This document shows positions 7,266-53,700 of a DNA stretch of 64,000 nucleotides, one piece after another; positions within the stretch are counted from its first letter, which is position 1; every line of letters starts with the position of its first letter. Origin of the DNA: Dyella lipolytica (lineage in GTDB: Bacteria; Pseudomonadota; Gammaproteobacteria; Xanthomonadales; Rhodanobacteraceae); contig NZ_BSNQ01000002.1 of assembly GCF_030160075.1 (NCBI RefSeq), positions 62,001 through 126,000 on the forward strand, read 5' to 3'. A program made the position numbers and the translations under genes. The notes beneath the pieces are model-generated. The model was given only the letters and a program-made list of their open reading frames with translations, did no database searches and was not told the origin of the DNA.

Positions 7266-8434
7266 GTGGCTTGGCCGCCGTGTCCTGGCTCGCGATCTTC
7301 ACAGCATCGCCGTCCTTGATGCCGTCGGGCGGGCTGTCGATCACACGGTCTCCCGCGGTTAGGCCGGAACCGATTTCGACCGTCTTGCCGTAGTCGTACA
7401 AAATGCTGACGTTCTTGAAGGCGACTTTGTCGCCCGTGCCCACCGTGGCCACGCGCAACCCGGCATTGTCGAAAATCAACGAGCTGGCGGGCACGCGCAA
7501 TGCGGCGGCATCGACCGGCAAGTTGAAATGCACGTGGGCGAAGCTGCCTGGTATTAGTTTGTTGTCAGTGTTGTCGACCAGCAGTTGCACAAGCGTCGTG
7601 CCGGAGGTGGCGTTGACGGCGTTGGCCGAAGCGACGACCTGCGCGTGGAATTCGCGCCCCGGATATTCCGGTACCACTAGCACGGCATCGCTGCCCGGAT
7701 GGATGGATGGACCGTAGCTCTGTGGCACCTGCACGTACACGCGCAACTTGTGAACGTCCGAGACCACGAATAATTCTGGGCCGGTGCCGCCGCCCGAGTT
7801 GATCAAGGCGCCGACGTCGGTATCGCGCGCCGTGACCACGCCATCGAACGGTGCCACGATGCGCGCGAATGCTTTGGTCGCTACGAGACGATCGACATTG
7901 GCTTGCGCAGCTTTCATCAACGCCACTTTGGCAGCGTAATCGCCACTGCGTTGGTCCACGTCTTGCTGCGCAACGGAGTCGCTGCCCAGCATCGCCTGCC
8001 AACGCTTGGCAGTAATCCCGGCGAGATCGGCGTTGGCCTTGGCGCTGGCGAGATCGGCGCGCGCCTGCAACAGTTGCTGGTCGATTTCCGGCGTGGAAAT
8101 TTCACCGAGCAGCTGACCGGCTTTCACCGGCGCACCGATATCGGTCTTCCACTCTTTCAGATACCCGCTGACTTGCGCGTAGATCGGCGCGCGCGTGAAC
8201 GCTTCCAGACGCCCGGGCAGATCCAGCACCGGACCAGTTTTGCCGGGCTCGGGAACGATCACACTGACCGTAGGTACGGCCTGCTCGTTAGTCCAGGTTT
8301 TCAGGCTGCTCGCCTGCGTCGCGCGAGTGATCAGGCCGATCACCACGACAGCGACCAGCACGACGCCAACGACGAGCCCGGTCAGACGCAATCCGTGCTT
8401 CGACGGCTTCTGAGTGGAGTGAGTAGTAATGACT

Positions 8435-38834: not shown

Positions 38835-38873
38835 CCCCCGTCGTTTGCCCCCGAAGGCCCCCACCAGCTACAG

Positions 38874-39092
38874 TTCACGCGTTTCGGGTGTCCCTTAGGT
38901 CTATCCAAAAGGGATGAAACGGGAAGCCGGTGCGCTGTTTCGCACAGCAAGGCCGGCGCTGCCCCCGCAACGGTAAGCGAGCGTTTTACGAACGGTTACA
39001 CGCCACTGTGCTGAACGCATGGGAAGGCATCGTTCGACGGTATGCGTTTCGTGCATGCCACTCGCGAGTCCGGAGACCGGCCTGATTCGATG
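38874..39092 (+). promoter_or_regulatory. Cobalamin (adenosylcobalamin) riboswitch
   Basis: All main blocks of the family can be read in order: GGTGTCCC (38887), GATGAAACGGGAAGCCGGTG, GGCCGGCGCTGCCCCCGCAA, GGTAAGC, the B12 box GCCACTGTG (39002), GGGAAGGC, then CGAGTCCGGAGACCGGCCTG at the 3' end. It lies about 145 bp upstream of the btuB-type receptor gene. When bound to cobalamin it should turn the gene down. Confidence 0.93.
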
Positions 39093-39201
39093 GTTCTGGC
39101 GACTCGCGGCGGGCGAGGCTCGGATCGCGTGCTTTGGCCTTTGTCGCCCGCCCGCTATTCCGTTCCTCTTGCATTGCATGGTCGCCGGCTTATTTATCTA
39201 C

Positions 39202-39221
39202 GCCGCGCGGGGCCGTGCGGC
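39202..39221 (+). promoter_or_regulatory. Hairpin just before the btuB ribosome-binding site
   Basis: GCCGCGCG / CGTGCGGC (8-bp stem with one G-U) around a GGGC loop, followed directly by AGGGGAA and then the ATG at 39237. It sits where the expression platform of the riboswitch would be. The region 39093-39201 shows no other gene or clear signal. Confidence 0.35.
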
Positions 39222-39236
39222 AGGGGAACCGACATC

Positions 39237-41150
39237 ATGTTGAAGAAAACATCGCTGGCAGCCGCGCTGCTCAGCCTTGGATTGGCCACTACAGCCTCAT
39301 ACGCCCAGACCGTTGCGACCAATCAAAGCAGCACGCTGGAGCCGGTGATCGTCACCGCGACGCGTACCGCGATCACCGAGGACAATTCCTTGTCCTCGGT
39401 GACCGTGATCACGCGCGAAGATATCGATCGTTTGCAACCGACGTCACTGGTGGATTTGCTTACCGGCCTGCCTGGCGTGTCGATCACGCAGAGCGGCGGT
39501 ATCGGGCAGCTGACTGGGCTGTATGTGCGCGGTACGAACGCCACGCATACGCTGGTGATGATCGACGGCGTGCGCATCGGTTCGGTGAGTATCGGCCTGC
39601 CGGCGCTGGAACAGATTCCGGTGGAGGCGATCGACCGTATCGAGATCGTGCGCGGTCCGCGCTCCAGTCTTTATGGTGCCGATGCGATCGGCGGCGTGAT
39701 CCAGATCTTCACGCGTCACGGTCAGCCCAATGGCGGCATCGCGCCTTCGCTCAGTGTGACGAGCGGTAGCCACGGCTATATCAACAGTCAGGCCGGTATT
39801 TCCGGCGGCGATGCGCACCTTTGGTACAACGCCAGCCTGGGCGGCGAGTACACCAGCGGCATTCCTGCCTGTCGCTTGGGTGCGGCAGAGCTCGGCGTGG
39901 GCTGCTTCGTGGATGATCCGCGCAATGACGCGTATCGCAACTGGAACGGCTTCGCCAACTTTGGCTACCGCTGGGACAACGGCACCGAACTGGCCTTTGA
40001 CTGGCTGCGCAGCAAGAGCGATGTGGAATACGCCGGCAGTCCGTTTGGCGGCAACGATGCGATCGAAGAACAAGAGGTGGCCGGCGCGCGGTTGAGTTTC
40101 GCGCCGCTGGATATCTGGAAAGTGACGTTGAACGCCGGGCAGAGCAGGGACGACGATGTCACCTTTTATCAAGGCACGTATGTCGGTACGTACTACCCAC
40201 GCATGGCGACCGGCTATTTCGATTCGCGCCGCAACCAAGCGTCGTGGCAAAACGACATCACGCTCAGCACCAACCAGTTACTGAGTGTCGGTGTCGATTA
40301 TCAGCAAGAGCATATTTTCAGCGACACGGGTTTCCAGGAGACCACTCGCGGCGACACCGGCACGTTTGCGCAATACCAGGGCACATTCGGTCAGAACGAA
40401 GTGCAGCTGTCGGCACGCCATGACCACAACGACCAGTTCGGCAACCACAACACCGGCGCTGCCGCGTGGGGTTACCACTTCGACCAGGGTCTGGTGCTAT
40501 CGGCGAGTTATGGCAGCGCGTTTCACGCGCCGACGTTCGACGACCTGTACTTCCCGGCGTTCGGCGGTGTGCCCACGGCCAACCCCGACCTGCGGCCGGA
40601 AACGTCCCGCAGCGCCGAAATCGGACTTACGCAACAGCTGACCGGCTGGAACTGGGGCGTCAATGCATACCAGACCCGCATCTCCAACCTGATTACGCTG
40701 AATACCGCCTTCGTGCCGATGAACCTCAGCCGCGCGCTGATTCGCGGTATCGAAGGTCAGTTCGGTTTCAATCTGGACGACTGGCGGGTGCAGAGCTACC
40801 TGACCTTGCTGCAGCCGAAGAACGATGACGGCGGCCCCGACAACGGCAAGCTGCTGCCGCGACGTGCCAAACAAACGGCGCGTGTGGATGTGGATCGCAG
40901 CTTCGGCAAGTTCGCGGTGGGCGCCACGTTCTTCGCTTCTGGCGCGCGCTATGACGACACCGCCAATGTGTACCGCATGGGCGGTTACGCCACCACCGAT
41001 CTGCGTGCCAGCTATGCCTTTGCGCCGGCTTGGCGCGTCGAGGCGCGGCTGGCGAACGCGTTCGATCACAACTACGAAACGGCCTATTACTTCAACCAGC
41101 TGGGGCGTACCTGGTACCTGACGCTGCGCTATAGCCCGGCCAATCGCTAA
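39237..41150 (+). CDS. btuB: BtuB-type TonB-dependent vitamin B12 receptor
   Basis: Outer-membrane cobalamin transporter of 637 residues. I use the ATG at 39237, which follows AGGGGAA and begins a signal peptide (MLKKTSLAAALLSLGLATTA); the upstream extension of the frame lies in the riboswitch. A TonB-box-like EPVIVTATR follows at about 35-43. The plug has LVDLLTGLPGVSITQSGG and RIEIVRGPRSSLYGADAIGG; the barrel runs to the end (RLANAFDHNYETAYYFNQLG, then RTWYLTLRY). These match BtuB closely, and the cobalamin riboswitch upstream independently supports B12 as substrate. Confidence 0.94.
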   Translation: MLKKTSLAAALLSLGLATTASYAQTVATNQSSTLEPVIVTATRTAITEDNSLSSVTVITREDIDRLQPTSLVDLLTGLPGVSITQSGGIGQLTGLYVRGTNATHTLVMIDGVRIGSVSIGLPALEQIPVEAIDRIEIVRGPRSSLYGADAIGGVIQIFTRHGQPNGGIAPSLSVTSGSHGYINSQAGISGGDAHLWYNASLGGEYTSGIPACRLGAAELGVGCFVDDPRNDAYRNWNGFANFGYRWDNGTELAFDWLRSKSDVEYAGSPFGGNDAIEEQEVAGARLSFAPLDIWKVTLNAGQSRDDDVTFYQGTYVGTYYPRMATGYFDSRRNQASWQNDITLSTNQLLSVGVDYQQEHIFSDTGFQETTRGDTGTFAQYQGTFGQNEVQLSARHDHNDQFGNHNTGAAAWGYHFDQGLVLSASYGSAFHAPTFDDLYFPAFGGVPTANPDLRPETSRSAEIGLTQQLTGWNWGVNAYQTRISNLITLNTAFVPMNLSRALIRGIEGQFGFNLDDWRVQSYLTLLQPKNDDGGPDNGKLLPRRAKQTARVDVDRSFGKFAVGATFFASGARYDDTANVYRMGGYATTDLRASYAFAPAWRVEARLANAFDHNYETAYYFNQLGRTWYLTLRYSPANR

Positions 41151-41163
41151 GGCAAGACTTCAA

Positions 41164-41195
41164 CCCGTCGTCCCGGCGAAAGCCGGGACGACGGG
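41164..41195. repeat. Perfect hairpin repeat downstream of btuB
   Basis: A 14-bp perfect stem, CCCGTCGTCCCGGC / GCCGGGACGACGGG, closed by a GAAA tetraloop, 13 bp after the btuB stop. There is no U tract, so it looks like a dispersed REP-type palindrome that could act as a weak terminator or mRNA-stabilising element. A diverged relative lies at 44551-44586. Confidence 0.7.
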
Positions 41196-41222: not shown

Positions 41223-41261
41223 CATGTCTTCCGGCACGGCCGGACTTCAGGCACATTCGCG
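41223..41261 (+). promoter_or_regulatory. Conserved box upstream of the first leader/RND unit
   Basis: This 39-bp segment matches 44643-44681 at 34 of 39 positions, including the uninterrupted CGGACTTCAGGCACATT. It stands 30 bp before the leader ORF start (41291), and the copy 28 bp before the second leader. It may be a promoter, a protein site or a structured RNA element; the sequence does not decide. Confidence 0.55.
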
Positions 41262-41290
41262 GGGATAGCCCCACAAGGCATAAGGTGCCC

Positions 41291-41389
41291 ATGGATATGC
41301 CCTGCTGTTTTGAAGCGCCGCCGCACGCGCTGGATGCGTGCGTGCGCGGCTTACGTTTGCCTGACGGCGACGCCCCGGTGACGCGATGA
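41291..41389 (+). CDS. Short cysteine-containing leader ORF, coupled to the first RND permease
   Basis: A 32-codon ORF: MDMPCCFEAPPHALDACVRG, then LRLPDGDAPVTR and stop. An AAGGTG ribosome site sits five bases before the ATG. Its TGA overlaps the permease start (ATGA at 41386-41389), and the permease has only a weak ribosome site of its own, so translation of the leader probably sets permease translation. A second leader beginning MDMP, also with three cysteines, precedes the paralogous permease at 44801. Function not known. Confidence 0.6.
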   Translation: MDMPCCFEAPPHALDACVRGLRLPDGDAPVTR

Positions 41390-44300
41390 GCGTCTTCGCG
41401 CCCATTATTCGCCGCCCGATTGGCACCTCGCTGCTGGCGATCGGCCTGACCATCGCCGGCTTCTGCGCCTATCTGCTGCTAGGTGTAGCCGCATTGCCGT
41501 CGCTGGACTTCCCCGGCCTGGTGGTGATCGCCCAATATCCCGGCGCCGATGCACAAACCATGGCGGCCACCGTGGTGGCACCGCTGGAGCGCCAGCTGGG
41601 CCGCATCCCGGGCATCCAGCAGATGACCTCCGACAGCAACGCCGGTGGTACCCAGATCCAGATCCTGTTCGATTTTGGCCGCAATGCGGACAAGGCGGCA
41701 CGCGACGTGCAGGCGGCCATCAATGCCGCCCAGCCGGACCTGCCGGCCGCTATGCAGCCGCCGCAGTATTTCAAGTTCGATACCGCTTCGATCCCGGTGC
41801 TGCTGATCTCGCTGACCTCGACCGGCATGCCGCCGGACAAGCTCTACGATCTCACGGACACGTTGCTGAAGCCGGCGGTGGCGCAGATTCCGGGCGTGGC
41901 GCAGGTGCAAGTGTTCGGTGGCACGCCGCATGCCGTGCGCGTGACGCTGAACAATGGCGCTCTGACGGCCAAGGGTTTGACGGCGAACGATGTGGCCAAC
42001 ACGTTGCGTGCGGCAAACGTTACGTCGCCGCAGGGCATTCTTAGCGACGGCCGCACGCAGATGACCGTCACGGCCAACGATGCGCTGCATACGCCTCAGG
42101 ATTTCGGCGCGCTGGTCATCGCCAACAAGAAAGGCGTGCCCGTACATCTTTCCGACGTGGCCACCATCACCAGCGGCCAGCAGGATGAGTATCAAGCCGC
42201 CTGGTTCAACGGCCAGCGCGCAGTATCCATGCAGATCAGCAAGCGCCCCGAGGCTAACTCGGTGCAATTGGTGCAGGATATTCGCAATCGCCTGCCGGGC
42301 TTGCGCAACCTGGTGCCGGCGGATGTGCAGATCACCCCGATTTTCGACCTCACGCAAGGCACCAAGTCCGCATTGCACGAAGTGGAGATCGCGCTGCTGC
42401 TCAGTATCGTCATGGTAGCGCTGGTGATGCTGGTGTTCCTGCGCCGCCTGCGCCCCATGCTCATCGCCATGCTTAGCGTGCCGTTGTCGCTGGCTGGCGC
42501 GTTTGTGGTGATGTATACGCTGGGGTTTACGCTTAATACGTTGTCGCTGATCGCGTTGGTGCTGTGCATCGGCTTTGTGGTGGACGATGCGATCGTGGTG
42601 ATCGAGAACATCGTGCGCCATATGGAACACGGCATGCAGTCGTTAGACGCCGCGCTGCTGGGCGTACGCGAGATTGGTTTTACGGTGATTTCGATCACCG
42701 TCTCGCTGGTGGCGGTGTTCGCGCCGATGGTGTTCGGCAACAACACGCTGGTGATGCTGATGCGTGAGTTTTCGGTCACGCTAATAGCCACCATCGTGAT
42801 TTCCGCACTGGTGTCGCTGACGCTTACGCCGGCCTTGTGCGGCCGCTATCTTCTGGAGGAGAAGGCGGAGCGCAAGCCCAGCAGACTCGAAGCCTTGGCC
42901 GAGCGATTCGACAACGGCATGCTGCATATTTACCGGCGCGGCCTGGATTGGGCCATGCATCACCGTCGCATCATGCGCTGGCAGCCTCTGATTCTGCTGC
43001 TGCTTACCGTTGGGCTCGCGGTGGTCGTCGCCAAGACGGCCGGCGGCGGCATCATGCCGAAAGAGGACACCGGCATGTTAATCGCGCAGATGACGGCTGA
43101 TGCGAATATCTCGCCCACGAAGATGGCCGAGCGCACCAAGGCCGTTGCGGCGATCATGCAGGCCGATCCCGCGGTGGTGGATGTGACCACGATTCTCGGC
43201 GGCAACAACAACAATGGCGCGGTCGGCAATGAATCCACGCTGTTCGTCGACCTCAAGCCACTGGGCAGGCACCCTGGCGAGCGTCCCGACTCTCTCGAAA
43301 AGGTGATCGAACGCCTGGACAAGCAATACAAGAATCTGCCGGATATGAAGGTGACTATGCGCGCCTTGCAGTTCCTCGGTGGCGGCAACAACAAGGGCGG
43401 CGGCGAATATGCCTTCGATCTTGACAGCACTACGGGCACCCTACTGCAACCGCCCACGCTGCGTCTGGCGCAGGTGATGCGCAAGATGAAACAGTTCAAG
43501 GACGTCACCACCAGTTACGACAGCATTGGCAAGCAACAGTTACTGGAGGTCGATCGCAACGCCGCGTCGCGATTGCAGGTCGGCATGGGTGCTATCGATC
43601 AAGCGCTTACCAATGCTTTCAGCCAGGCTCCGGTGTCGGTCATCTATTCGGATATCAATCAGTACCGTGTCGTGTTGACGGCGGGCAATGCGGATCGGCT
43701 AAGCCCCGACACTTTACTTAACACCTATGTGCGCAATGCACAGGGCAAAATGATCCCACTGTCGGCGATGGCGCGAATCAAACCGTATATCGCGCCGGTC
43801 GAGGTTCAGCACTTCAACCAGGTGGAATCGTCCACGATCAGCTACAACCTGGCCGAGGGTGTCACGCAGGCGGACGGTCTTAAATATATTGATCAGGCGA
43901 TGTTTGCCGCACAGCTGCCGTCGGGTGTAACCAAACGCTATACGGGTGACAACCAAAAGCTGATGGAGGCGCTGGAAAACGCGCTGATTGTTTTCGCCGC
44001 GGTGATCTTGGTGATGTATATCGTGCTCGGCATTCTTTACGAGAGCCTGATTCATCCGCTTACCATTCTTTCCACCCTACCCGCCGCGGGCATGGGCGCG
44101 TTCCTCGCCATGCTGATCACACATACGCAGTTGACCATCATGTCGGTGATCGCGGTGTTGATGCTGATCGGCATCGTGAAGAAGAATGCGATCCTGATGG
44201 TGGACTTTGCGCTAGTCGCCGAGCGCGACGGCGGGCTTACGCCGCCGGAAGCGATCCGCGAGGCGGCGCTGGTGCGTTTCCGCCCAATCACCATGACTAC

Positions 44301-44547
44301 GCTGGTGGCGATGGGCGCCGCGTTGCCGCTGGCGATTGGTTTCGGCATCGGTTCGGAAATGCGCCAGCCGTTGGGTATCGCGATTCTCGGCGGCTTGTTC
44401 GTGTCGCAGCTGCTGACGCTGCTGAGTACGCCGGCGATTTATTTGTGGCAACACGATCGTCGCGAACGGAAGGCGGCACGCAAGGCGCGGCGCGCGGAAA
44501 AGCGACGTTTACGCCAGCTGGGCAAGCGGATCACGGCTGCCAACTGA
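41386..44547 (+). CDS. RND efflux permease (MdtB/MuxB-like), first of a tandem pair
   Basis: Inner-membrane drug/proton antiporter of 1053 residues: TM1 IRRPIGTSLLAIGLTIAGFCAYLLLG, the porter entrance PSLDFPGLVVIAQYPGADAQTMA, TM4 proton relay Asp400-Asp401 in GFVVDDAIVVIEN, and the C-terminal half GILYESLIHPLTILSTLPAAGMGAFLAML and RFRPITMTTLVAMG. It is most like the MdtB/MdtC and MuxB/MuxC permeases that act as mixed trimers with a shared adapter. No adapter or outer-membrane gene is adjacent, so those partners must be elsewhere. Its start overlaps the leader ORF at 41291. It follows btuB by 235 bp. Confidence 0.93.
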   Translation: MSVFAPIIRRPIGTSLLAIGLTIAGFCAYLLLGVAALPSLDFPGLVVIAQYPGADAQTMAATVVAPLERQLGRIPGIQQMTSDSNAGGTQIQILFDFGRNADKAARDVQAAINAAQPDLPAAMQPPQYFKFDTASIPVLLISLTSTGMPPDKLYDLTDTLLKPAVAQIPGVAQVQVFGGTPHAVRVTLNNGALTAKGLTANDVANTLRAANVTSPQGILSDGRTQMTVTANDALHTPQDFGALVIANKKGVPVHLSDVATITSGQQDEYQAAWFNGQRAVSMQISKRPEANSVQLVQDIRNRLPGLRNLVPADVQITPIFDLTQGTKSALHEVEIALLLSIVMVALVMLVFLRRLRPMLIAMLSVPLSLAGAFVVMYTLGFTLNTLSLIALVLCIGFVVDDAIVVIENIVRHMEHGMQSLDAALLGVREIGFTVISITVSLVAVFAPMVFGNNTLVMLMREFSVTLIATIVISALVSLTLTPALCGRYLLEEKAERKPSRLEALAERFDNGMLHIYRRGLDWAMHHRRIMRWQPLILLLLTVGLAVVVAKTAGGGIMPKEDTGMLIAQMTADANISPTKMAERTKAVAAIMQADPAVVDVTTILGGNNNNGAVGNESTLFVDLKPLGRHPGERPDSLEKVIERLDKQYKNLPDMKVTMRALQFLGGGNNKGGGEYAFDLDSTTGTLLQPPTLRLAQVMRKMKQFKDVTTSYDSIGKQQLLEVDRNAASRLQVGMGAIDQALTNAFSQAPVSVIYSDINQYRVVLTAGNADRLSPDTLLNTYVRNAQGKMIPLSAMARIKPYIAPVEVQHFNQVESSTISYNLAEGVTQADGLKYIDQAMFAAQLPSGVTKRYTGDNQKLMEALENALIVFAAVILVMYIVLGILYESLIHPLTILSTLPAAGMGAFLAMLITHTQLTIMSVIAVLMLIGIVKKNAILMVDFALVAERDGGLTPPEAIREAALVRFRPITMTTLVAMGAALPLAIGFGIGSEMRQPLGIAILGGLFVSQLLTLLSTPAIYLWQHDRRERKAARKARRAEKRRLRQLGKRITAAN

Positions 44548-44550
44548 ACA

Positions 44551-44586
44551 TGCTCGTCGTCTCGGCCGACGCTGGGATGACGAGCA
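44551..44586. repeat. Imperfect hairpin repeat between the tandem RND genes
   Basis: TGCTCGTC / GACGAGCA outer arms with an inner stem TCTCGGC / GCTGGGA containing two G-U pairs and a CGAC loop, 4 bp after the first permease stop. The same position and related sequence (TCGTC, then TCGGC or CCGGC) as the perfect hairpin at 41164-41195 indicate a shared repeat family. Confidence 0.55.
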
Positions 44587-44642
44587 AGAAGTGCGGGTGC
44601 AAAGGGAACCAAAACGCCCGTCTGTGGACCATTACCTATCCA

Positions 44643-44681
44643 CATGCCTTCTGGCATGGGCGGACTTCAGGCACATTTGCG
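44643..44681 (+). promoter_or_regulatory. Conserved box upstream of the second leader/RND unit
   Basis: Second copy of the 39-bp segment at 41223-41261 (34 of 39 identical). In this copy ATGCC-TTCT-GGCAT also forms a short hairpin. The distance to the leader ATG is nearly the same in both copies. Confidence 0.55.
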
Positions 44682-44709
44682 AGAGCGCCCGTGCGCGTAT
44701 GAAGTGTTT

Positions 44710-44796
44710 ATGGATATGCCCTCGTTTTCATGCAGCCTCTGCGCCCGGAATCCACGGGGCTTTGCTTGCGCCTACCTGACGAGGGTGCGGGGGTAA
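44710..44796 (+). CDS. Short cysteine-containing leader ORF before the second RND permease
   Basis: A 28-codon ORF: MDMPSFSCSLCARNPRGFAC, then AYLTRVRG and TAA. A GAAGTG ribosome site lies four bases before the ATG. The stop is four bases before the permease ATG at 44801. It shares the MDMP start and three cysteines with the leader at 41291, although the rest has diverged, which suggests that the leader was duplicated with the pump and kept. Confidence 0.55.
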   Translation: MDMPSFSCSLCARNPRGFACAYLTRVRG

Positions 44797-44800
44797 TCGC

Positions 44801-47800
44801 ATGAATATCTTCGAGCCCATCATCCGGCGCCCCGTGGGAACCTCGTTGCTGGCGATCGGGCTGGTCATTGCCGGGTTCTGCGCCTATCTGTTGCTTGGTC
44901 TGGCGGCGTTCCCCTCGATTGAATTTCCCGGCGTGGCGGTATTCGCGCAACTTCCCGGCGCCAGCGCGCAGACCATGGCAACGACGGTGGTCGCACCGCT
45001 GGAGCGTCAGCTCGGACGCATTCCCGGTATTCAGGAAATGGACTCCGACACCACGCAAGGCGGCACGCAGATCCAGATCCTGTTCGACGTCGGCCGCAAC
45101 CCCGACAAGGCGGCACGCGATGTGCAGGCGGCGATCAATGCCGCGGCACCGGATCTGCCGGCCGAAATGGCGCTGTCGCCGCCGCAATACTTCAAATTCG
45201 ATACCTCGCAGATTCCAGTGTTGCTGATTTCGCTGACCTCCACCAGCATGCCGCCGGACAAACTTTACGATCTGGCCGACACACTAGTGAGGCCAGCGGT
45301 ATCGCAAATTACCGGCGTGGCGCAGGTGCAGCTGAATGGAGGTGCGCCGCATGCGATACGCGTGTCGCTGAACAATGGCGCGCTGACTGCGAAGGGTTTG
45401 ACGGCGAACGATGTAGCCAATGCGCTGCGCGCTGCGAACGTCACCTCGCCGCAAGGCATATTGAGCGACGGCCGCACGCAGATGACCGTCACGGCCAACG
45501 ATGCGCTGCATACGGCGAACGATTTTGGCTCGCTGGTGATCGCCAACAAGAAAGGCGTACCGGTCTATCTCTCCGACGTGGCGACGGTCACCAACGGTCA
45601 GCAGGACACCTATCAGGCGGCGTGGTTCAACGATCAGCGCGCCGTCACCATGGCGGTCAACAAGCGCCCCGAGGCCAACTCGGTGCAACTGGTGCAACAG
45701 ATCCGCGAGACCATTCCACGGCTGCGCGCCCTGGTGCCGGCCGACGTGCAGATCACGCCGATCTTCGATCTGACACTGTCCACCAAGTCGGCGTTGCACG
45801 AAGTGGAAATCGCACTGTTGATCAGCATCGCGATGGTGGCGCTGGTGATGCTGGTGTTTCTGCGTCGCACGCGCCCCACGATAATCGCGATGTTCAGCGT
45901 ACCGCTTTCGCTCGCCGGCGCGTTCGTGCTGATGTATGCCTTGGGCTTCACTCTCAATACGCTGTCGTTGATCGCGCTGGTGCTGTGCATCGGCTTTGTG
46001 GTGGACGACGCCATCGTGGTGATCGAAAACATTTTCCGTCACATGGAGCAGGGCGCCAGTCGGTTGGATGCCGCGTTGGTCGGCGTGCGGGAGATCGGCT
46101 TTACCGTCATCTCGATCACGCTTTCGCTGGTCGCGGTGTTCGCGCCGATGGTGTTCGGCAACAACACGCTGGTGATGCTGATGCGTGAGTTCTCGGTCAC
46201 GCTGATCGCGACGATCGTGATTTCCGCGGTGGTTTCGCTGACGCTGACGCCGGCGCTTTGCGGTCACTATCTCATCGAAGAAAAGCCTGGCGTGAACAAA
46301 CCGGGCAAGCTTGAAGCGACCGTCGCGCGCTTCGACCGCTGGCTGCTGCATATCTACGAACGCGGTCTGGATTGGGCCATGCACCATCGCCGCGTGATGC
46401 GCTGGCAGCCGTTGATCCTGCTGGTGTTGACCATCGCCGTGGCGATGGCCGTCGCCAAGACAGCCGGCGGCGCGGTGATGCCCAAGAGCGACACCGGCAT
46501 GCTGCAGGCGACCATGACCGCCGATGCAAACATCTCGCCGGATCTGCTCGCCAAGCGTGCGCAAGCGGTCTACGCCGTCATGCTGGCCGATCCCGCCGTG
46601 CTCGACGTCGCCACGTTCCTCGGCGGCAATAACACCAACGGCGCGGTGGGCAATCAGGCGTCGTTCTTCGTCGACCTCAAACCGTTGGGCAGCGGACCTG
46701 GCCAGCGGCATGACTCGATGGATAAAGTGATTGCGCGGTTCACCAAACAATATAAAAAGCTGGCCGACGTGGATGTCGTCGTCACCAGCCTGGGCTTTTT
46801 CGACGATGGCGGCGGCACCAAGGCCAAAGGCCAATACGCTTTCGACCTGACCGACACCAATGGCGGCTCGCTACAGGAGCCCACGCTGCGGCTGGCGCAA
46901 GTGATGCGCAAGATGAAGCAATTCCGCGATGTCAGTACCAGCTTCGACAGCATCGGCAAGCAGCAGATGCTGGAGATCGACCGCAACGCTGCGGCCCGTA
47001 TGCAAGTGAATATGGGACAGGTCGACCAGGTTTTATTCGATGCGTACGGCCAGACGCCGGTCTCGGTGATCTATTCCGACATCAACCAGTACCAGGTGAT
47101 ACTGACGGCCGACAACGCCGGCTCGCTCAGTCCGGATACGCTGTTGAACATGTATGTGCGCAATACCCAGAACAAGATGGTGCCGCTGTCGGCCATTGCG
47201 CACATCAAACCATTCATTGCACCGGTGGAGGTGCAACATTTCAATCAGCTCGAATCGTCGGCGCTCAACTACAACCTGGCCGATGGCGTCACGCAGGCAG
47301 ACGGCCTGAAGCTGATCGATCAAGCCATGTTCGCTGCGCAGCTGCCGCCGGGCGTGGGCAAGAAATTCACCGGCGACAACCAGAAGCTGGTTCAGGCAGC
47401 CACCAATGCCGCCATCATGTTCATCGCCGTGATCCTTGTGATGTATGTCGTGCTCGGCATTCTTTACGAGAGCCTGATCCATCCGCTGACGATTCTCTCC
47501 ACGCTACCCGCCGCGGGCATGGGCGCTTTTCTCGCCATGCTGATTACGCATACGCAGCTCACCACCATGTCGGTGATCGCGGTACTGATGCTGATCGGCA
47601 TCGTGAAGAAGAACGCGATCCTGATGGTGGACTTTGCGCTGGTCGCCGAGCGCGAACACGGCCGCGCGCCGCCGGATGCCATTCGCGAGGCAGCGCTGGT
47701 GCGCTTTCGCCCCATCACCATGACAACGCTAGTGGCGATGGGTGCTGCGCTGCCGTTGGCGATCGGTTTCGGTATCGGCTCGGAAATGCGCCAGCCGTTA

Positions 47801-47971
47801 GGTATTGCGATTCTTGGCGGGTTGTTCGTGTCCCAGTTGCTGACGCTGCTGAGCACCCCGGCTATTTATCTGTGGCAACACGATCGCCGCGAACGGAAAG
47901 CGGCGCGTAAATTGCGCAAGGCCGAGAAACAGCGCTTGCGTGCGATCGGCAAACAAATCAGCGTGACTTAG
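44801..47971 (+). CDS. RND efflux permease (MdtC/MuxC-like), second of a tandem pair
   Basis: 1056 residues, closely similar along its whole length to the permease at 41386 (same TM1 IRRPVGTSLLAIGLVIAGFC, proton relay Asp402-Asp403 in GFVVDDAIVVIEN, same C-terminus QHDRRERKAARK). The two are a tandem duplication that has since diverged, mostly in the central porter region (around 46590-46850). Two different permeases without a local adapter fit a heterotrimeric MdtBC/MuxBC-type pump. Preceded by its own copy of the box and leader. Confidence 0.93.
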   Translation: MNIFEPIIRRPVGTSLLAIGLVIAGFCAYLLLGLAAFPSIEFPGVAVFAQLPGASAQTMATTVVAPLERQLGRIPGIQEMDSDTTQGGTQIQILFDVGRNPDKAARDVQAAINAAAPDLPAEMALSPPQYFKFDTSQIPVLLISLTSTSMPPDKLYDLADTLVRPAVSQITGVAQVQLNGGAPHAIRVSLNNGALTAKGLTANDVANALRAANVTSPQGILSDGRTQMTVTANDALHTANDFGSLVIANKKGVPVYLSDVATVTNGQQDTYQAAWFNDQRAVTMAVNKRPEANSVQLVQQIRETIPRLRALVPADVQITPIFDLTLSTKSALHEVEIALLISIAMVALVMLVFLRRTRPTIIAMFSVPLSLAGAFVLMYALGFTLNTLSLIALVLCIGFVVDDAIVVIENIFRHMEQGASRLDAALVGVREIGFTVISITLSLVAVFAPMVFGNNTLVMLMREFSVTLIATIVISAVVSLTLTPALCGHYLIEEKPGVNKPGKLEATVARFDRWLLHIYERGLDWAMHHRRVMRWQPLILLVLTIAVAMAVAKTAGGAVMPKSDTGMLQATMTADANISPDLLAKRAQAVYAVMLADPAVLDVATFLGGNNTNGAVGNQASFFVDLKPLGSGPGQRHDSMDKVIARFTKQYKKLADVDVVVTSLGFFDDGGGTKAKGQYAFDLTDTNGGSLQEPTLRLAQVMRKMKQFRDVSTSFDSIGKQQMLEIDRNAAARMQVNMGQVDQVLFDAYGQTPVSVIYSDINQYQVILTADNAGSLSPDTLLNMYVRNTQNKMVPLSAIAHIKPFIAPVEVQHFNQLESSALNYNLADGVTQADGLKLIDQAMFAAQLPPGVGKKFTGDNQKLVQAATNAAIMFIAVILVMYVVLGILYESLIHPLTILSTLPAAGMGAFLAMLITHTQLTTMSVIAVLMLIGIVKKNAILMVDFALVAEREHGRAPPDAIREAALVRFRPITMTTLVAMGAALPLAIGFGIGSEMRQPLGIAILGGLFVSQLLTLLSTPAIYLWQHDRRERKAARKLRKAEKQRLRAIGKQISVT

Positions 47972-48337: not shown

Positions 48338-48892
48338 TCACGCCGACGCGTTCGTCCAGCGCATGCTGATGTACGTGTTTTCGCGCGCCACGTCGGCGAA
48401 TCCGTGCCTGACGTAGAGCCGGTGCGCGGAGTGGTTGTGTTCGTATACGTGCAAATCGATGCCTGCGGCACCGGTCTGTCGCACCTGTGCCTGGGTCCAG
48501 TCGAGCAAGGCGCTGCCGACGCCGCGGCCTCGCCAATCGGGTTCCATCGCAATATCGATGATCCGGTAATACGGCAGTCCGCGTAACAGGTAATAACGGC
48601 CGACAGTACGTCCGTCGTGCTCGACGATCCAGAAATCCGTCGAGGCGTAATGCGTAACGTAATGGCTGTGCTGAAGCGCGAACTGGCTATCCAGAAACGT
48701 CTGCTTGAAGCCATCCGGCCAGTCGACCTGCGCCAGCTCGGCGGCGCGCACCGTGCCGTAAAGCTTTCGAAGATAGGGCAGGTCATCGTCGCGGGCTGCG
48801 CGCAAGCGCAACCCGCCTGCCTGCCATGGCGCGTTGTAAGAAGTCTCCGCACGCGCCGGCGGAAAAGCGAGGGGTTCGCCTATGGCTGGCAT
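48338..48892 (-). CDS. GNAT-family N-acetyltransferase, last gene of the tail-collar operon
   Basis: 184 residues from the ATG at 48892. Motif A is IIDIAMEPDWRGRGVGSALLDWTQAQVRQ and motif B LHVYEHNHSAHRLYVRHGFADV; both are intact. The ATG overlaps the stop of the preceding collar gene (TGATG), so it is translationally coupled. Acetyltransferases are often found at the end of this kind of collar operon, which suggests modification of the collar proteins or their ligand, as inference. Confidence 0.87.
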   Translation of the reverse strand: MPAIGEPLAFPPARAETSYNAPWQAGGLRLRAARDDDLPYLRKLYGTVRAAELAQVDWPDGFKQTFLDSQFALQHSHYVTHYASTDFWIVEHDGRTVGRYYLLRGLPYYRIIDIAMEPDWRGRGVGSALLDWTQAQVRQTGAAGIDLHVYEHNHSAHRLYVRHGFADVARENTYISMRWTNASA

Positions 48893-49428
48893 CAACCGAA
48901 CGATGGATAGACGCCGTACAACGCGATGCCATAGGTGATCGCCAGCGCTGGCTGACGATTCTCATGCGGCTGGTTTTGTCCCGTCGCCGTCGACATGTTC
49001 GGCGAAAAGGTGGTGTTGGGATTGGTGCCGGCCGCTGGAAAAGGCGAGGCTTGAAGCGGTATCAGCAGCGCGTTGCCTGGCGAGGGCTTGTTGCTGCGCT
49101 TGGTTGCATCGGCTTGGTTGTACAGCAGAAACCCATGGTTGTGCCGCGGCATTTCGTTGCCGGTAAGGGTGACGCTGGGATCACCAAAGGGCTCGCCGAT
49201 ATCGCGCTGCGTCAGGCCAATACCTGCGCCTTGGTTGCATGCGGCGCGACTTACCAGGTTGGGTATCTGGAACGTCGATGTGCCATTACCGCCGTAGGTC
49301 GTACCGAGCAGCGAGAACAAGGCGGTGTTCTGCTGGATGCTGAAGGTAGCACCGTTGCATAGCGCCCATTGGTAAGGGGCGAAGTTGAAGCCGAATAATT
49401 GGATTTCACCAACAAAAGGCATTGTCAT
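48892..49428 (-). CDS. Phage-tail-collar-like (MdpB family) protein 1
   Basis: 178 residues from the ATG at 49428 (GGAGC upstream). The N-terminal Tail Collar domain reads MTMPFVGEIQLFGFNFAP, ALCNGATFSIQQNTALFSLLGTTYGGNGTSTFQIPNL; the C-terminus ends ALAITYGIALYGVYPSFG. No signal peptide. Related to the microcystin-dependent protein MdpB, whose function is not settled. One of three paralogues in a row, each about 178 residues, with no other phage gene nearby. Confidence 0.88.
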   Translation of the reverse strand: MTMPFVGEIQLFGFNFAPYQWALCNGATFSIQQNTALFSLLGTTYGGNGTSTFQIPNLVSRAACNQGAGIGLTQRDIGEPFGDPSVTLTGNEMPRHNHGFLLYNQADATKRSNKPSPGNALLIPLQASPFPAAGTNPNTTFSPNMSTATGQNQPHENRQPALAITYGIALYGVYPSFG

Positions 49429-49483
49429 GATGCGCTCCGGCGATGGGGGCGGTGATGAAGTTGCGGCATGTCCTTGCTCGGTA

Positions 49484-50017
49484 TCAACCTTGCGAGGGAA
49501 AAATGCCTGCAAAGGCGATGCAGTACGACACCGTCAACGTTGGCATGGTGTTTTCGTGCGGCAGACTGCCACCCTGAGTGCTCACGGCAGCGGCGGCCAT
49601 CGTGAAATTGGTGGCACCGGTCAGATCCGTGGCGTACATCGTGTCGGTGTTGGTCAACGCACCCGGCATCACCGTGTTGCCTGGCGTGCCGGTACTGACG
49701 TTATTGGTGGTTGCATTGAGCGTATGCGTATGCAGCGGCATCTGCTGTGTCGTCAATGTGACACTTTCGGTACCACCGACTTCGCCTATTACGCGCGGCG
49801 TGAGGCCAAGGCCGGTGCCTTGATGCAGCGGTATCTGGCCACGCATGTCCGGCATGGCGAACGTATTGACACCGTCGCCGCCGTAGGTCGTGCCCAGCAA
49901 CGTGTACAGCGTTTGGTATGCCGAAATGGGTTGCAAGCTGCCGTCGCACGCCAACCAGCCGGTCGGAACGCGCGAAAAGCCGAACAGCCGGATTTCGCCC
50001 ACATAGGGGGTACTCAT
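49484..50017 (-). CDS. Phage-tail-collar-like (MdpB family) protein 2
   Basis: 177 residues, ATG at 50017 after AGGAGCC. MSTPYVGEIRLFGFSRVPTG, WLACDGSLQPISAYQTLYTLLGTTYGGDGVNTFAMPDMRGQIPLHQG is the best match of the three to the collar consensus (PxGWLxCDG, LLGTTYGGDG, PDxRG). The C-terminus is VSYCIAFAGIFPSQG. It starts 39 bp after collar protein 3 and ends 55 bp before collar protein 1. Confidence 0.9.
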   Translation of the reverse strand: MSTPYVGEIRLFGFSRVPTGWLACDGSLQPISAYQTLYTLLGTTYGGDGVNTFAMPDMRGQIPLHQGTGLGLTPRVIGEVGGTESVTLTTQQMPLHTHTLNATTNNVSTGTPGNTVMPGALTNTDTMYATDLTGATNFTMAAAAVSTQGGSLPHENTMPTLTVSYCIAFAGIFPSQG

Positions 50018-50056
50018 GAAAGGCTCCTCGTGAATGCCTGGATGGTCGCGAACGGA

Positions 50057-50590
50057 TCAGTTGCGCGACGGAAAAACGCCGGTCAATGCGATGTTGAAAT
50101 TGATAACGCGATACGGCTGCATGTTGGAATGTGGCTGACTGCCGCCTGCCGCTTGGAGCTGCGAAGCGGCGAGCGCTGTCACACCACTGCCACCATTTCC
50201 GTAAATCGACTCGCTCGACGGCACGCCGTAGATCGTGTTGGTCGGGTTACGGTCTTTGCCTGCCACGGTGGTGGCGTTGATGATGTGCGCGTGCTGGGGC
50301 AGCGTCGTGGGGTCGAGCACCACGTTTTCCACACCGAACTGCTGACCGATCTGATACCCCGGCGGCTGCCAACCCGGATCGACCGAATTGCCTGCACCCA
50401 TCGGTGTCCTGCCTCGTAGATCAGGCAGGCAAAACGTGGATACGCCATTGCCGCCGTAATACGTACCTATCAACGAGAACAAAGCCGCGTTCTGGTTGAT
50501 CGGCAAGGTTTGGCCGTTGCACAGCGCAAACCCGCGTTGAGCGAAATTGAAACCGGTGAGCATGATCTGCCCAATGAAGTACTCGGACAT
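50057..50590 (-). CDS. Phage-tail-collar-like (MdpB family) protein 3
   Basis: 177 residues from the ATG at 50590, with GGGGG upstream; the open frame to 50680 has no ribosome site. MSEYFIGQIMLTGFNFAQRG, FALCNGQTLPINQNAALFSLIGTYYGGNGVSTFCLPDLRGRTPMG gives the collar motifs; the C-terminus is VINFNIALTGVFPSRN. First gene of the four-gene operon. The 194-bp region to the divergent autotransporter gene must hold both promoters. Confidence 0.9.
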   Translation of the reverse strand: MSEYFIGQIMLTGFNFAQRGFALCNGQTLPINQNAALFSLIGTYYGGNGVSTFCLPDLRGRTPMGAGNSVDPGWQPPGYQIGQQFGVENVVLDPTTLPQHAHIINATTVAGKDRNPTNTIYGVPSSESIYGNGGSGVTALAASQLQAAGGSQPHSNMQPYRVINFNIALTGVFPSRN

Positions 50591-50784
50591 CGTTTTGACC
50601 CCCTGTGGCGATGAATGACGGCCTGCCGCCTTTTCTGCCTTCACGCGAGCGTCACATAGCTCACGCCCTGTCAACAACATATCGCGAACGGTGCTACAGT
50701 CCGGTCCTGCTTTGCGGACTGGTTCACACTTATCGCGCGGAGCGCGCCTTTTGTAAATAGGCGCAACGACAGGGGGACAAAGGA

Positions 50785-53700
50785 ATGAGCATTCGTCTGT
50801 ATCAGGCGGCGTTTCGGCGCACGCTTGCGAGCGTGCATGGCAGCGGGCTTTTGTTGCGCTGCTTGCTACTGTGTGTGGCGTTCGTTTGCATGAGTCTGGT
50901 TCCTGCCAGCGCGCGTGCGAACGAATGTCCGAATATGTCGATCACAGTGCCATCGGGTACGACGGATACTTTCGCAGTACCCGCCTGCTCGCCCACGGGT
51001 GCAAACGCCCCAGGCACTGCCGGCATTGCGCAGCAACCAGCACATGGTTCGGCCACTATCTCCGCAAACGACGCGGACATTAGCTATACGAACAACGGCG
51101 ACAGTGCGACGACGGATTCCTTCGCTTGGTTTGACGATCTCGGCGAAGCGATCACTGTAACGGTCACCATCGGCGCATCGACGACTCCGCCAGTTACGTT
51201 GAGCCCGACAACTGCGCCCAATGGTACGCTTGGACAAGCATATTCCCTGCAGTTCACCGCGTCGGGCGGCAACGGAGGGCCGTACACGTTCGTGATCAAC
51301 TCGGGCAATTTGCCAGCGGGCTTGAACGACAACACCAGTGGACTGATTTCGGGCACACCCACGGAAAGCGGGACTTTCAGCTTTACCGAAACGGCCCAGG
51401 ACAGCAGCGGGAATGTCGGCCAGCAGGCCATTACGCTGACGATCAACGGCGGCAGCATCAGCGTGAGCCCGACCAGCCTGCCGAATGCGACGGCTTATGC
51501 AGCTTTCAATCAGACGTTAGCTGCCAGCGGCGGCACGGCTCCTTACACATTTTCACAAGTACCTGGAACCGCACCACCTGCAGGCATCACCATCGGTAGC
51601 AGCGGCAGTATTTCCGGTACTGCAACCAGTCTTGGTTCCACCAATTTTTCAGTCAAGGTCACGGACAGCGTCGGTACGTCGGAGCAGGTGAGCTACACCC
51701 TGCAAGTGGTAGCGCCTACGATCACACTGTCGCCGACCAGCCTGCCGGGCGCTACCGAGAATTCGCCATATCCCACGCACACACTCACAGCGAGCGGAGG
51801 GACAGGGCCCTATACGTTCGCAGTGACATCGGGCGCGTTACCGAGCGGTTTGTCGTTATCGAGCAGCGGTGTACTCAGCGGTACGCCCACGACCAGCGGA
51901 GCGGTCTCTTTCAGCGTTACCGCAACGGACACGCATGGCTTCACCAGTACGGCACAAGCCTACTCGTTCACCATCTCACCGCCGCTCACGTTGGCCGGTT
52001 CCACGCTCAGCGCCGCAACGGTCGGCGCGTCTTACAACACCACGATCAGCGCATCAGGTGGAAGCGCGCCGTATACGTATGCGGTCACATCCGGTGTGTT
52101 GCCTGCAGGGCTTTCTCTCAACACGACGACGGGCGCAGTCTCCGGTACGCCGACAGCGGGCGGCACGTTCAACTTCACGGTGACCGCCACCGATGCGAAC
52201 AGTGCCACGGCATCGGGCAGCTTCAGCCTGACCGTGAGCGCACCGACGATGTCGCTTGCACCGACATCGCTACCGAACGCGACGCAGAATGTGGCCTACA
52301 GCCAGAACATTACGGCCAGCAACGGCACGGCGCCGTACACGTATGCCGTGACGGCAGGGGCTTTGCCGGCAGGCGTGTCGTTGTCATCGGCGGGCACGCT
52401 TAGCGGCACGCCGACCGTGTTCGGCTCGTTCTCCTTCAGCATCACGGCGACGGACAGCAGCACCGGCACGGGGCCTTACACCGTTGCGCGCGCTTATGCG
52501 TTGACGGTGGTTTCCGCCGCGCCGGTGATCACCACCACCAGCTTGCCTGCGGGCACCGTGAGCATCGCTTACAGTCAGACGATCGTCGTCAGCGGCGGCA
52601 ATCCGCCGTATACGTTCGCAGTGACATCTGGCAGCTTGCCCGCGGGCTTGCATCTCAACAGCGGCACCGGCGTGCTATCGGGCACGCCTACCGCCGGCGG
52701 TACGTTCTCCGTCAGCGTGACCGTAACGGATGCCGCGAGCAACACGGGAACACAGAGCTACAGCATCACGATCAATGCGCCGACCATCGTCGTCGCGCCG
52801 ACCACCTTGCCGGTACCGACCGACGGCGTGGCTTATTCACAGGCCATCAGCGCCTCCGGCGGCACCGCGCCCTATACGTTCGCGGTGACGTCCGGCAGTT
52901 TGCCGCCCGGTATGACACTAGCCAGCAACGGCACGCTGTCGGGCACGCCCACTGGCGCGGGAACTTACAACTTCACAACCACAGCCACCGATAGCAGCAC
53001 CGGAACCGGTCCATATACGGGATCGCGGGCTTACAGTTTCACCATTGCCGCGCCCACGCTGACGTTGGCGCCAGCGGGCCTGGCGCTGACTGCGTCTTAT
53101 GCGCAGGCTTACACGCAGACATTCACCGCAAGCGGCGGTGTCGCTCCCTATACGTATACCGAATCAGGCACGTTGCCGGTCGGCGTCACTTGGAACGCCG
53201 CAACCGCCACGCTCTCGGGAACGCCTACGCAATCGGGCAGCTTCCCCATCACCGTGACTGCGACCGATCACAGCACCGGAACGGGTGCGCCTTTCTCTGT
53301 CGCGCAGAACTACACGTTGACGGTAAGCGCGGCGGCGATCTCGATCAGTCCGAGTACGTTGGCGACAGGAACGGTCGGCGTTGCCTACGGCTCATCGCTC
53401 ACCGCCAGCGGTGGCGTGGCGCCTTACACATATGCCGTCACCAGCGGCAGCCTGCCCGCCGGCATCACTCTGAGTTCGTCCGGCCAGCTCAGCGGCACAC
53501 CCACGGCAGCCGGTACATTTAGCGTGACGGTCAAAGCTACCGATGCCAATAATGCATCGGGCTCGCAGGCGTACAGCCTTACGATCAGTGCGCCGACGTT
53601 GGCACTCAGTCCCACAACTCTGCCCACCGCGGCAGCAGAGGTCGCGTACAGCCAGACATTCAGCACATCGGGTGGTACGGCGCCATACACGTATTCGGTC

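Follow-up and report, generated by a model that had tools for sequence, protein, structure and literature searches.

Short open reading frames (ORFs) that begin at the 5′ end of a transcript and run into the start of the next gene are known from mycobacteria and E. coli. Mycobacterial leaderless small ORFs coupled to the following gene by an RTGA tetramer are over-represented; their start was mapped to the 5′ terminus, the TGA of the short ORF lies over the next start codon, and they have been proposed to raise ribosome occupancy (Shell et al., 2015; PMC4633059). In E. coli, upstream ORFs (uORFs) with an AUG at or near the 5′ end of the mRNA have been described, some of which influence the downstream gene, and that of rhaB overlaps it by ATGA (PMC4965119). 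The uPPE2-PPE2 pair of M. tuberculosis has an AUGA overlap and a downstream gene without a Shine-Dalgarno (SD) sequence, for which mainly termination-reinitiation was shown (PMC11260477). Here we report on two short ORFs in a 64,000-nt stretch of Dyella lipolytica DNA (contig NZ_BSNQ01000002.1, positions 62,001 to 126,000; hereafter the window, in whose coordinates features are given), each of which precedes one of two tandem RND permease genes. Leader ORF 1 (41291..41389, + strand, 32 codons, MDMPCCFEAPPHALDACVRGLRLPDGDAPVTR) is predicted to be leaderless, and its TGA overlaps the start of permease 1 (41386..44547, +) within an ATGA; leader ORF 2 (44710..44796, +, 28 codons, MDMPSFSCSLCARNPRGFACAYLTRVRG) stops 4 nt before permease 2 (44801..47971, +; 80% identity to permease 1). 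An initial annotation of the window had noted both ORFs, these junctions and an upstream box common to the two, all of which we recovered. We favor, with moderate confidence, the reading that such a leader is a leaderless ORF coupled to the permease, onto which it would pass its ribosomes; the peptide would then be irrelevant while start and frame would matter.

The locus resembles these systems in architecture and differs from each of them in particulars. The mycobacterial RTGA ORFs rest on mapped starts and ribosome profiling (PMC4633059), whereas here the setting is a gammaproteobacterial family and a single transporter clade, the starts are predicted, and a comparison of 95 copies shows neutral peptides in a kept frame. 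An RTGA-type junction, taken as a TGA over the next start, is present in 95 of the 113 related copies that have an ATG at the corresponding place, leader 1 among them; leader 2, ending 4 nt short, lacks it. In contrast, the genes downstream of the E. coli uORFs have SD sequences of their own, and ptrB works without translation of its uORF (PMC4965119). The uORF of uPPE2-PPE2 is SD-led and lies behind a B12 riboswitch in the same mRNA (PMC11260477), whereas the riboswitch at our locus lies 2.2 kb upstream, before a btuB-like gene. The leaderless leader ORF of peTrpL in Sinorhizobium meliloti is likewise tied to an RND efflux system, but it encodes a 14-aa attenuator peptide that acts in trans, requires W12 and does not stand ahead of the pump (PMC7298713). 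A short ORF coupled to its downstream gene is also found in the E. coli iraD uORF, the coupling being controlled by CsrA (PMC5574718), and a 2025 review puts forward, as a proposal, that a short ORF may do nothing more than deliver a ribosome (PMC12548453). We found no report of the present leaders in the open-access literature searched. Integron ORF-11 is a further short ORF coupled to a downstream gene; neither it nor the iraD uORF is known to be leaderless. By these comparisons the predicted architecture is known from mycobacteria and E. coli; for this lineage and gene family we found no report, and the evolutionary evidence here that the peptide is irrelevant is clear.

Relatives were searched in 61 genomes, in 233 genomes of the family, in one further genus (23 genomes) and in named genomes (65 loci); the named relatives belong to Dyella, Rhodanobacter, Luteibacter and near genera. 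At least 146 of the 233 family genomes had a match at the cut-off used, and for the listed family matches lacking a locus 80 stretches were retrieved and 10 left out. The counts below rest on 191 distinct upstream regions of the permease clade, which are a part of all copies. Copies with less than 56% identity, with less than 150 nt of upstream sequence or duplicated in the last 150 nt were dropped beforehand, as were two whose start was not read as NTG, one out of register (L151) and one, a Rhodanobacter copy, whose permease start appears to be CTG (L238 at 3001, CTGAAC). An ATG stands 33-37 nt behind the conserved box in 113 of the 191 regions. From this fixed ATG an ORF runs to an NTGA overlapping the permease start in 95 copies, stops elsewhere in 16, and is fused or open in 2. 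The box without an ATG at the fixed place was found in 69 copies, and 6 lack the box; in one copy (L208) the box was probably mis-assigned in these counts. In 3 copies the permease ATG itself occupies the start place, behind a clear GCATAAAG in L048 and behind weak elements in L056 and L067. At L058 (9354) leader ATG and permease share one reading frame, which might lengthen the protein by about 21 residues at its N terminus.

Evidence for a constraint on these ORFs lies in their frame. Relative to the permease, the 113 fixed-ATG ORFs fall into the three frames as 98, 8 and 7, and 95 of the 98 in the main frame are open to the NTGA, where about 46% would be expected for 29 codons from the rate of stops in the other frames. 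The frame is kept over lengths of 5 to 42 codons, with 20 different values and 92 of 95 leaders within 21-38. For a test on independent pairs we used 89 of the 113 leaders, namely those with at least 900 nt of permease, as edge-disjoint sister pairs on one FastTree permease tree. Of the 44 pairs, 30 differ in leader length, 20 of them by a multiple of three (binomial p 1.9e-4 against 1/3); among sister pairs without the ATG (46 copies, 23 pairs), the length difference is a multiple of three in 3 of 13. Likewise, of 111 ATGs at the fixed place 95 are coupled to the permease; for other ATGs between box and permease, taken over every copy with a box and excluding ATGs in frame with a coupled leader, the figure is 23 of 196. 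The tetramer itself says little: the permease starts with NTGA in 190 of the 191 copies (101 GTGA, 72 ATGA and 17 TTGA; the remaining one is ATGT) because its second codon is nearly always Asn, so that only the frame is informative. Random indels or stops in orthologous leaders, which the initial annotation had named as a sign that would speak against its ORFs, are therefore not the rule; the reading frame survives, the exceptions being the 16 of 113 that stop elsewhere. As far as genome comparison can tell, this shows that leader start, frame and stop have been kept in many related bacteria.

The encoded peptide, by contrast, drifts. In 28 disjoint leader pairs of equal length, chosen as the most similar pairs and not from a tree, substitutions at codon positions 1, 2 and 3 numbered 159, 160 and 163. 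Codon changes were synonymous in 74 cases and not in 269, a synonymous fraction of 0.216 against 0.234 in the permuted null (95% 0.194-0.272). Thus the conserved peptide sequence to be expected of an arrest or attenuator peptide was not found in these 28 pairs. Divergence was 0.25 in leaders and 0.30, 0.10 and 0.06 at permease positions 3, 1 and 2 (21 pairs, first 100 codons); register shifts have probably distorted the corresponding promoter value (mean 0.27) for some pairs, and it was set aside. The codon-level conservation that the initial annotation had suggested looking for is hence absent, with no purifying selection on the peptide by the codon-position test, and a function of the peptide sequence is unsupported. 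Nor is the MDMP start, read earlier as a shared feature, maintained: relatives read MNVP, MNAS, MDTL, MIEP, MTAP and others. Most newly found ORFs of M. tuberculosis likewise give no sign of purifying selection (PMC9094748). At the level of evolutionary comparison, these data show that the ORF product is irrelevant whereas start and frame are relevant.

The start of the leader stands at a fixed distance from a conserved upstream element. Relative to the ATG of the 95 copies (effective number 37), conservation is seen in a dyad region at about -70 to -52 and in GGACTTCAGGCACAT at about -48 to -34; the logo further has G at -14 (95%), CATAAA at -12 to -7, a pyrimidine at -1 (93%) and A at +1. 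From -200 to -71 there is no conservation, so the element ends where a promoter for that start would. Because the -10-like hexamer lies about 6 nt ahead of the ATG, we infer a transcript start at the AUG, and the mRNA probably begins with the leader ATG. In the window, copy 1 consists of the dyad TGYC-N4-GGCA (41225..41236, +), the box GGACTTCAGGCACAT (41242..41256, +) and the hexamer CATAAG (41279..41284, +), and copy 2 of the dyad TGCC-TTCT-GGCA (44645..44656, +), the box GGACTTCAGGCACAT (44662..44676, +) and the hexamer TATGAA (44698..44703, +), each hexamer 6 nt ahead of its leader ATG. The -10-like element also occurs in 56 of 59 no-ATG copies with a good box, by a loose match, without a chance rate, for which 5 or more of 8 letters at any position within 22 nt sufficed; being present without an ATG, it is not simply the ribosome binding site of the leader. 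An SD of its own had been ascribed to each leader. Leader 1 has AAGG (-6.1 kcal/mol to the anti-SD), leader 2 nearly nothing (-0.5), and over the 95 copies the SD core is depleted ahead of the leader ATG (0.05 versus 0.20 shuffled). Since the purines in question belong to the -10-like hexamer, the sequence read as an SD is probably a -10 element. Sigma-54, ECF and RpoH promoters did not fit, judged by eye against their consensus sequences. When 16 genomes of the genus were scanned with a sequence model of the element that was itself derived in part from these copies, all 34 permease copies among the matches listed were recovered (E at most 5.6e-7); for a wider regulon of the box in the same genomes, the best non-permease site had E 0.03 (150 candidates scored per genome). 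Among the candidates scored, the dyad with its box (41225-41256 and 44645-44676) thus occurs in the genus only ahead of this permease clade.

We propose that each permease copy bears its own promoter-like element, made up of the dyad, the GGACTTCAGGCACAT box and GGCATAAAG, whose -10-like hexamer would place the 5′ end of the transcript at the leader AUG. Ribosomes would initiate at this 5′-terminal AUG without an SD and translate a short ORF of nearly any sequence, ending at the TGA of the NTGA. The NTG of the same tetramer is the permease start, and the overlap suggests that ribosomes restart there. In this manner the ORF would load ribosomes onto a permease mRNA in which the SD core is no commoner than in shuffled sequence (0.20 versus 0.21 in leader copies) and in which the start is GTG or TTG in 44 of 95 leader copies; the role of the coupling would be to raise permease expression.

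Several observations weigh against this proposal. Many of the 95 coupled leaders are mutually related, and the arrangement is not universal, since 69 of the 191 copies keep the box and have no ATG at the fixed place. The NTGA is present in all of those 69, so the tetramer alone is no sign of coupling. In another 16 of the 191 copies the ORF stops elsewhere, in 7 of them after 4-9 codons. At -7 the -10-like hexamer carries A in place of T, and the 95 copies show no conserved -35 hexamer of good quality. In raw counts, an SD core precedes the permease in 42 of 69 no-leader versus 19 of 95 leader copies (Fisher 1e-7), as if the leader replaced the permease SD; after phylogenetic correction, just 2 of 15 contrasts are discordant and these two point in opposite directions, which gives no support, and we dropped this trade-off as evidence because the raw counts are not robust. 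Finally, knocking out the uAUG of E. coli rhaB leaves rhaB expression unchanged (PMC4965119), so such an overlap need not matter.

Some of these points fit a passive or protective ORF without a positive role in loading. On this view a promoter starting at CATGA yields the AUG incidentally, and leaderless initiation at it is tolerated only if the ORF ends at the permease start and does not cross it out of frame. This would account for a kept frame together with a neutral peptide, the NTGA stop is there anyway, 69 copies manage without the ATG, SD substitution finds no support after phylogenetic correction, and rhaB, whose uORF overlaps it in just this way, is unaffected when that uORF is lost (PMC4965119). 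On the other hand, any upstream stop would serve such protection, and the ATG could be lost, as it apparently has been in other clades; yet one frame is kept in 98 of 113 ORFs across 20 lengths. We regard a passive ORF as unlikely.

A transcript with a conventional leader is, in our view, less likely still. Its start would lie upstream of the dyad, so that dyad, box and GGCATAAAG form a 5′ untranslated region or regulatory RNA and a weak SD (AAAG or AAGG) starts the leader. A -10 alone does leave the long conserved box unexplained, and leader 1 of the window has the AAGG. However, the unconserved region from -200 to -71 offers no candidate for the real promoter and the SD core is depleted ahead of the ATG. 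In addition, no consensus RNA fold (-0.76 kcal/mol) and no covariation of the dyad beyond shuffles were found from -75 to +5 in 42 copies, the dyad of copy 1 included, and a scan of the window gave no Rfam match above threshold in the leader regions. A structured RNA or riboswitch leader is unsupported on all three counts.

By analogy with a proposal for E. coli ptrB (PMC4965119), the 5′-terminal AUG might instead act as a ribosome standby site that binds 70S and aids the permease start without translation of the ORF. The irrelevance of peptide content would suit this, but the frame and the openness of the ORF would then not matter, yet both are kept, which makes a standby site very improbable.

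The initial annotation had taken the leaders for a peptide system sensing metal, redox state or translation stress, and had read the cysteines as kept. Each window leader does have three cysteines, and a mycobacterial leaderless ORF with a cysteine cluster is known ahead of cysA2 (PMC4633059). The cysteines of the two leaders stand at codons 5, 6 and 17 versus 8, 11 and 20, and in 40 of the 95 coupled leaders there is no cysteine at all. Of the leader residues 3.1% are cysteine, versus 6.7% and 5.0% in the other two frames, and neither conserved nor clustered cysteine codons, as a cysteine-responsive leader would have, were found in the 95 leaders. In Bordetella, a cysteine-rich upstream ORF for copper uptake is a small ORF ahead of a transport gene whose peptide is the sensor; the leaders here, in contrast, lack sequence constraint. 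Sensing of copper by a nascent protein has also been described (PMC9973294). Mycobacterial polycysteine leaderless attenuators (Canestrari et al. 2020) are reportedly leaderless short ORFs ahead of an operon and respond to cysteine, whereas here cysteine is neither conserved nor enriched. Given this frequent absence and low rate of cysteine, cysteine or metal sensing is unsupported; no amino-acid constraint is seen, and we consider a sensing peptide (cysteine, metal or redox) highly improbable. What stands of the earlier proposal is that short ORFs are conserved and tied in frame to a pump gene. Chance ORFs without function, which short, drifting peptides in GC-rich DNA with few stops might suggest, are the least probable of all given the independent-pair frame test, the other ATGs as an internal control and the fixed spacing to the promoter-like element.

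Leader 2 of the window is an exception to the coupled arrangement. The two window copies resemble each other in the box, at the ATG and over a block close to the start of the permease. This block, LRLPD-x4-V, belongs to the leader frame of copy 1 but to a different frame in copy 2, where an alternative ORF (44730..44804, +, MQPLRPESTGLCLRLPDEGAGVIA) has an end resembling leader 1 and finishes in an ATGA overlap; leader 2 is thus frame-shifted relative to leader 1. Its frame and stop position are common to one near relative (L043/L220), and it is one of 5 among the 16 other-stop ORFs whose stop begins at most 7 nt upstream of the permease start. Under our proposal, copy 2 would have lost the exact overlap, and a restart from 4 nt upstream would still be plausible. 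The window pair alone is misleading: two copies would cast doubt on the ORF, and the relatives settle the question.

Two other forms of the upstream region were observed. At loci L193-L215 (genus g11, probably Luteibacter), the box and -10-like element are kept, and the leader ORF gives way to a GC-rich stretch of short length, with an AGGA-type SD ahead of a GTG start. In L098, L133, L180, L244 and similar loci (probably Rhodanobacter), a recurring TATGCTTGCG...CAGGGAG block lies just ahead of the permease start, possibly a second promoter with an SD.

Both permeases exceed the Pfam ACR_tran cut-off (912.8 and 881.5 bits) and are RND proteins (AcrB/AcrD/AcrF). They are nearest to MdtB/MdtC but stay below the cut-off of every NCBIfam model listed for them; permease 1 scores 927 of 1774 bits for MdtC, 895 of 1584 for MdtB/MuxB and 991 of 1250 for RND_permease_2. 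Genomes that have this permease have 1-3 copies among the matches listed. No RND_mfp (adaptor) match over the cut-off, as an MdtABC-type operon would have, was found within 20 kb of the pair; RND_mfp matches above cut-off were located outside the window, some 20.7 kb downstream, and inside it at about 7294-8268. Upstream of the pumps is a gene for a btuB-like TonB receptor (ORF 39042-41150, probably starting at 39237; 588.6 bits versus a B12 receptor cut-off of 599.7), so that a B12 receptor gene adjoins MdtB/C-like pumps (38869-41150). A cobalamin riboswitch (38869-39099) precedes it, and one was found in 8 of the 9 relatives' loci scanned. We rejected a link of this riboswitch to the leaders, as it precedes the btuB-like gene and none was found in the leaders. 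A perfect 14-bp inverted repeat lies 3′ of the btuB-like gene (41164..41195; no T run by eye, Rfam matches sub-threshold only) and an imperfect one (81%, 16 nt) 3′ of permease 1 (44551..44586; no T run by eye), so the pump genes may be separate units. Further downstream, the window encodes three adjoining similar ORFs of 177-207 aa (48892-50680, minus strand), which resemble tail-collar (MdpB-type) proteins, and a 1943-aa protein (50785-56616) that combines 13 putative Ig (He_PIG) stretches with an autotransporter barrel.

A more speculative extension of the coupling proposal is that promoter and content-free leaderless ORF form a cassette carried by each pump copy, making pump synthesis depend on 5′-terminal-AUG initiation, so that the pump would be favored when ordinary initiation is impaired by stress or initiation-blocking compounds. 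We think this doubtful; if true, the signal would be the state of the ribosome and not a peptide. The usual yardstick for a short ORF is whether its peptide is conserved; in this family start and frame are retained while the peptide changes at about the pace of third positions in the permease. The 95 coupled leaders, the 69 copies with a box and no ATG and the 3 copies with the permease ATG at the start place form a natural set for the study of leaderless initiation and coupling outside mycobacteria. Taken as evolutionary evidence, they suggest that being translated can be the entire function of a bacterial upstream ORF.

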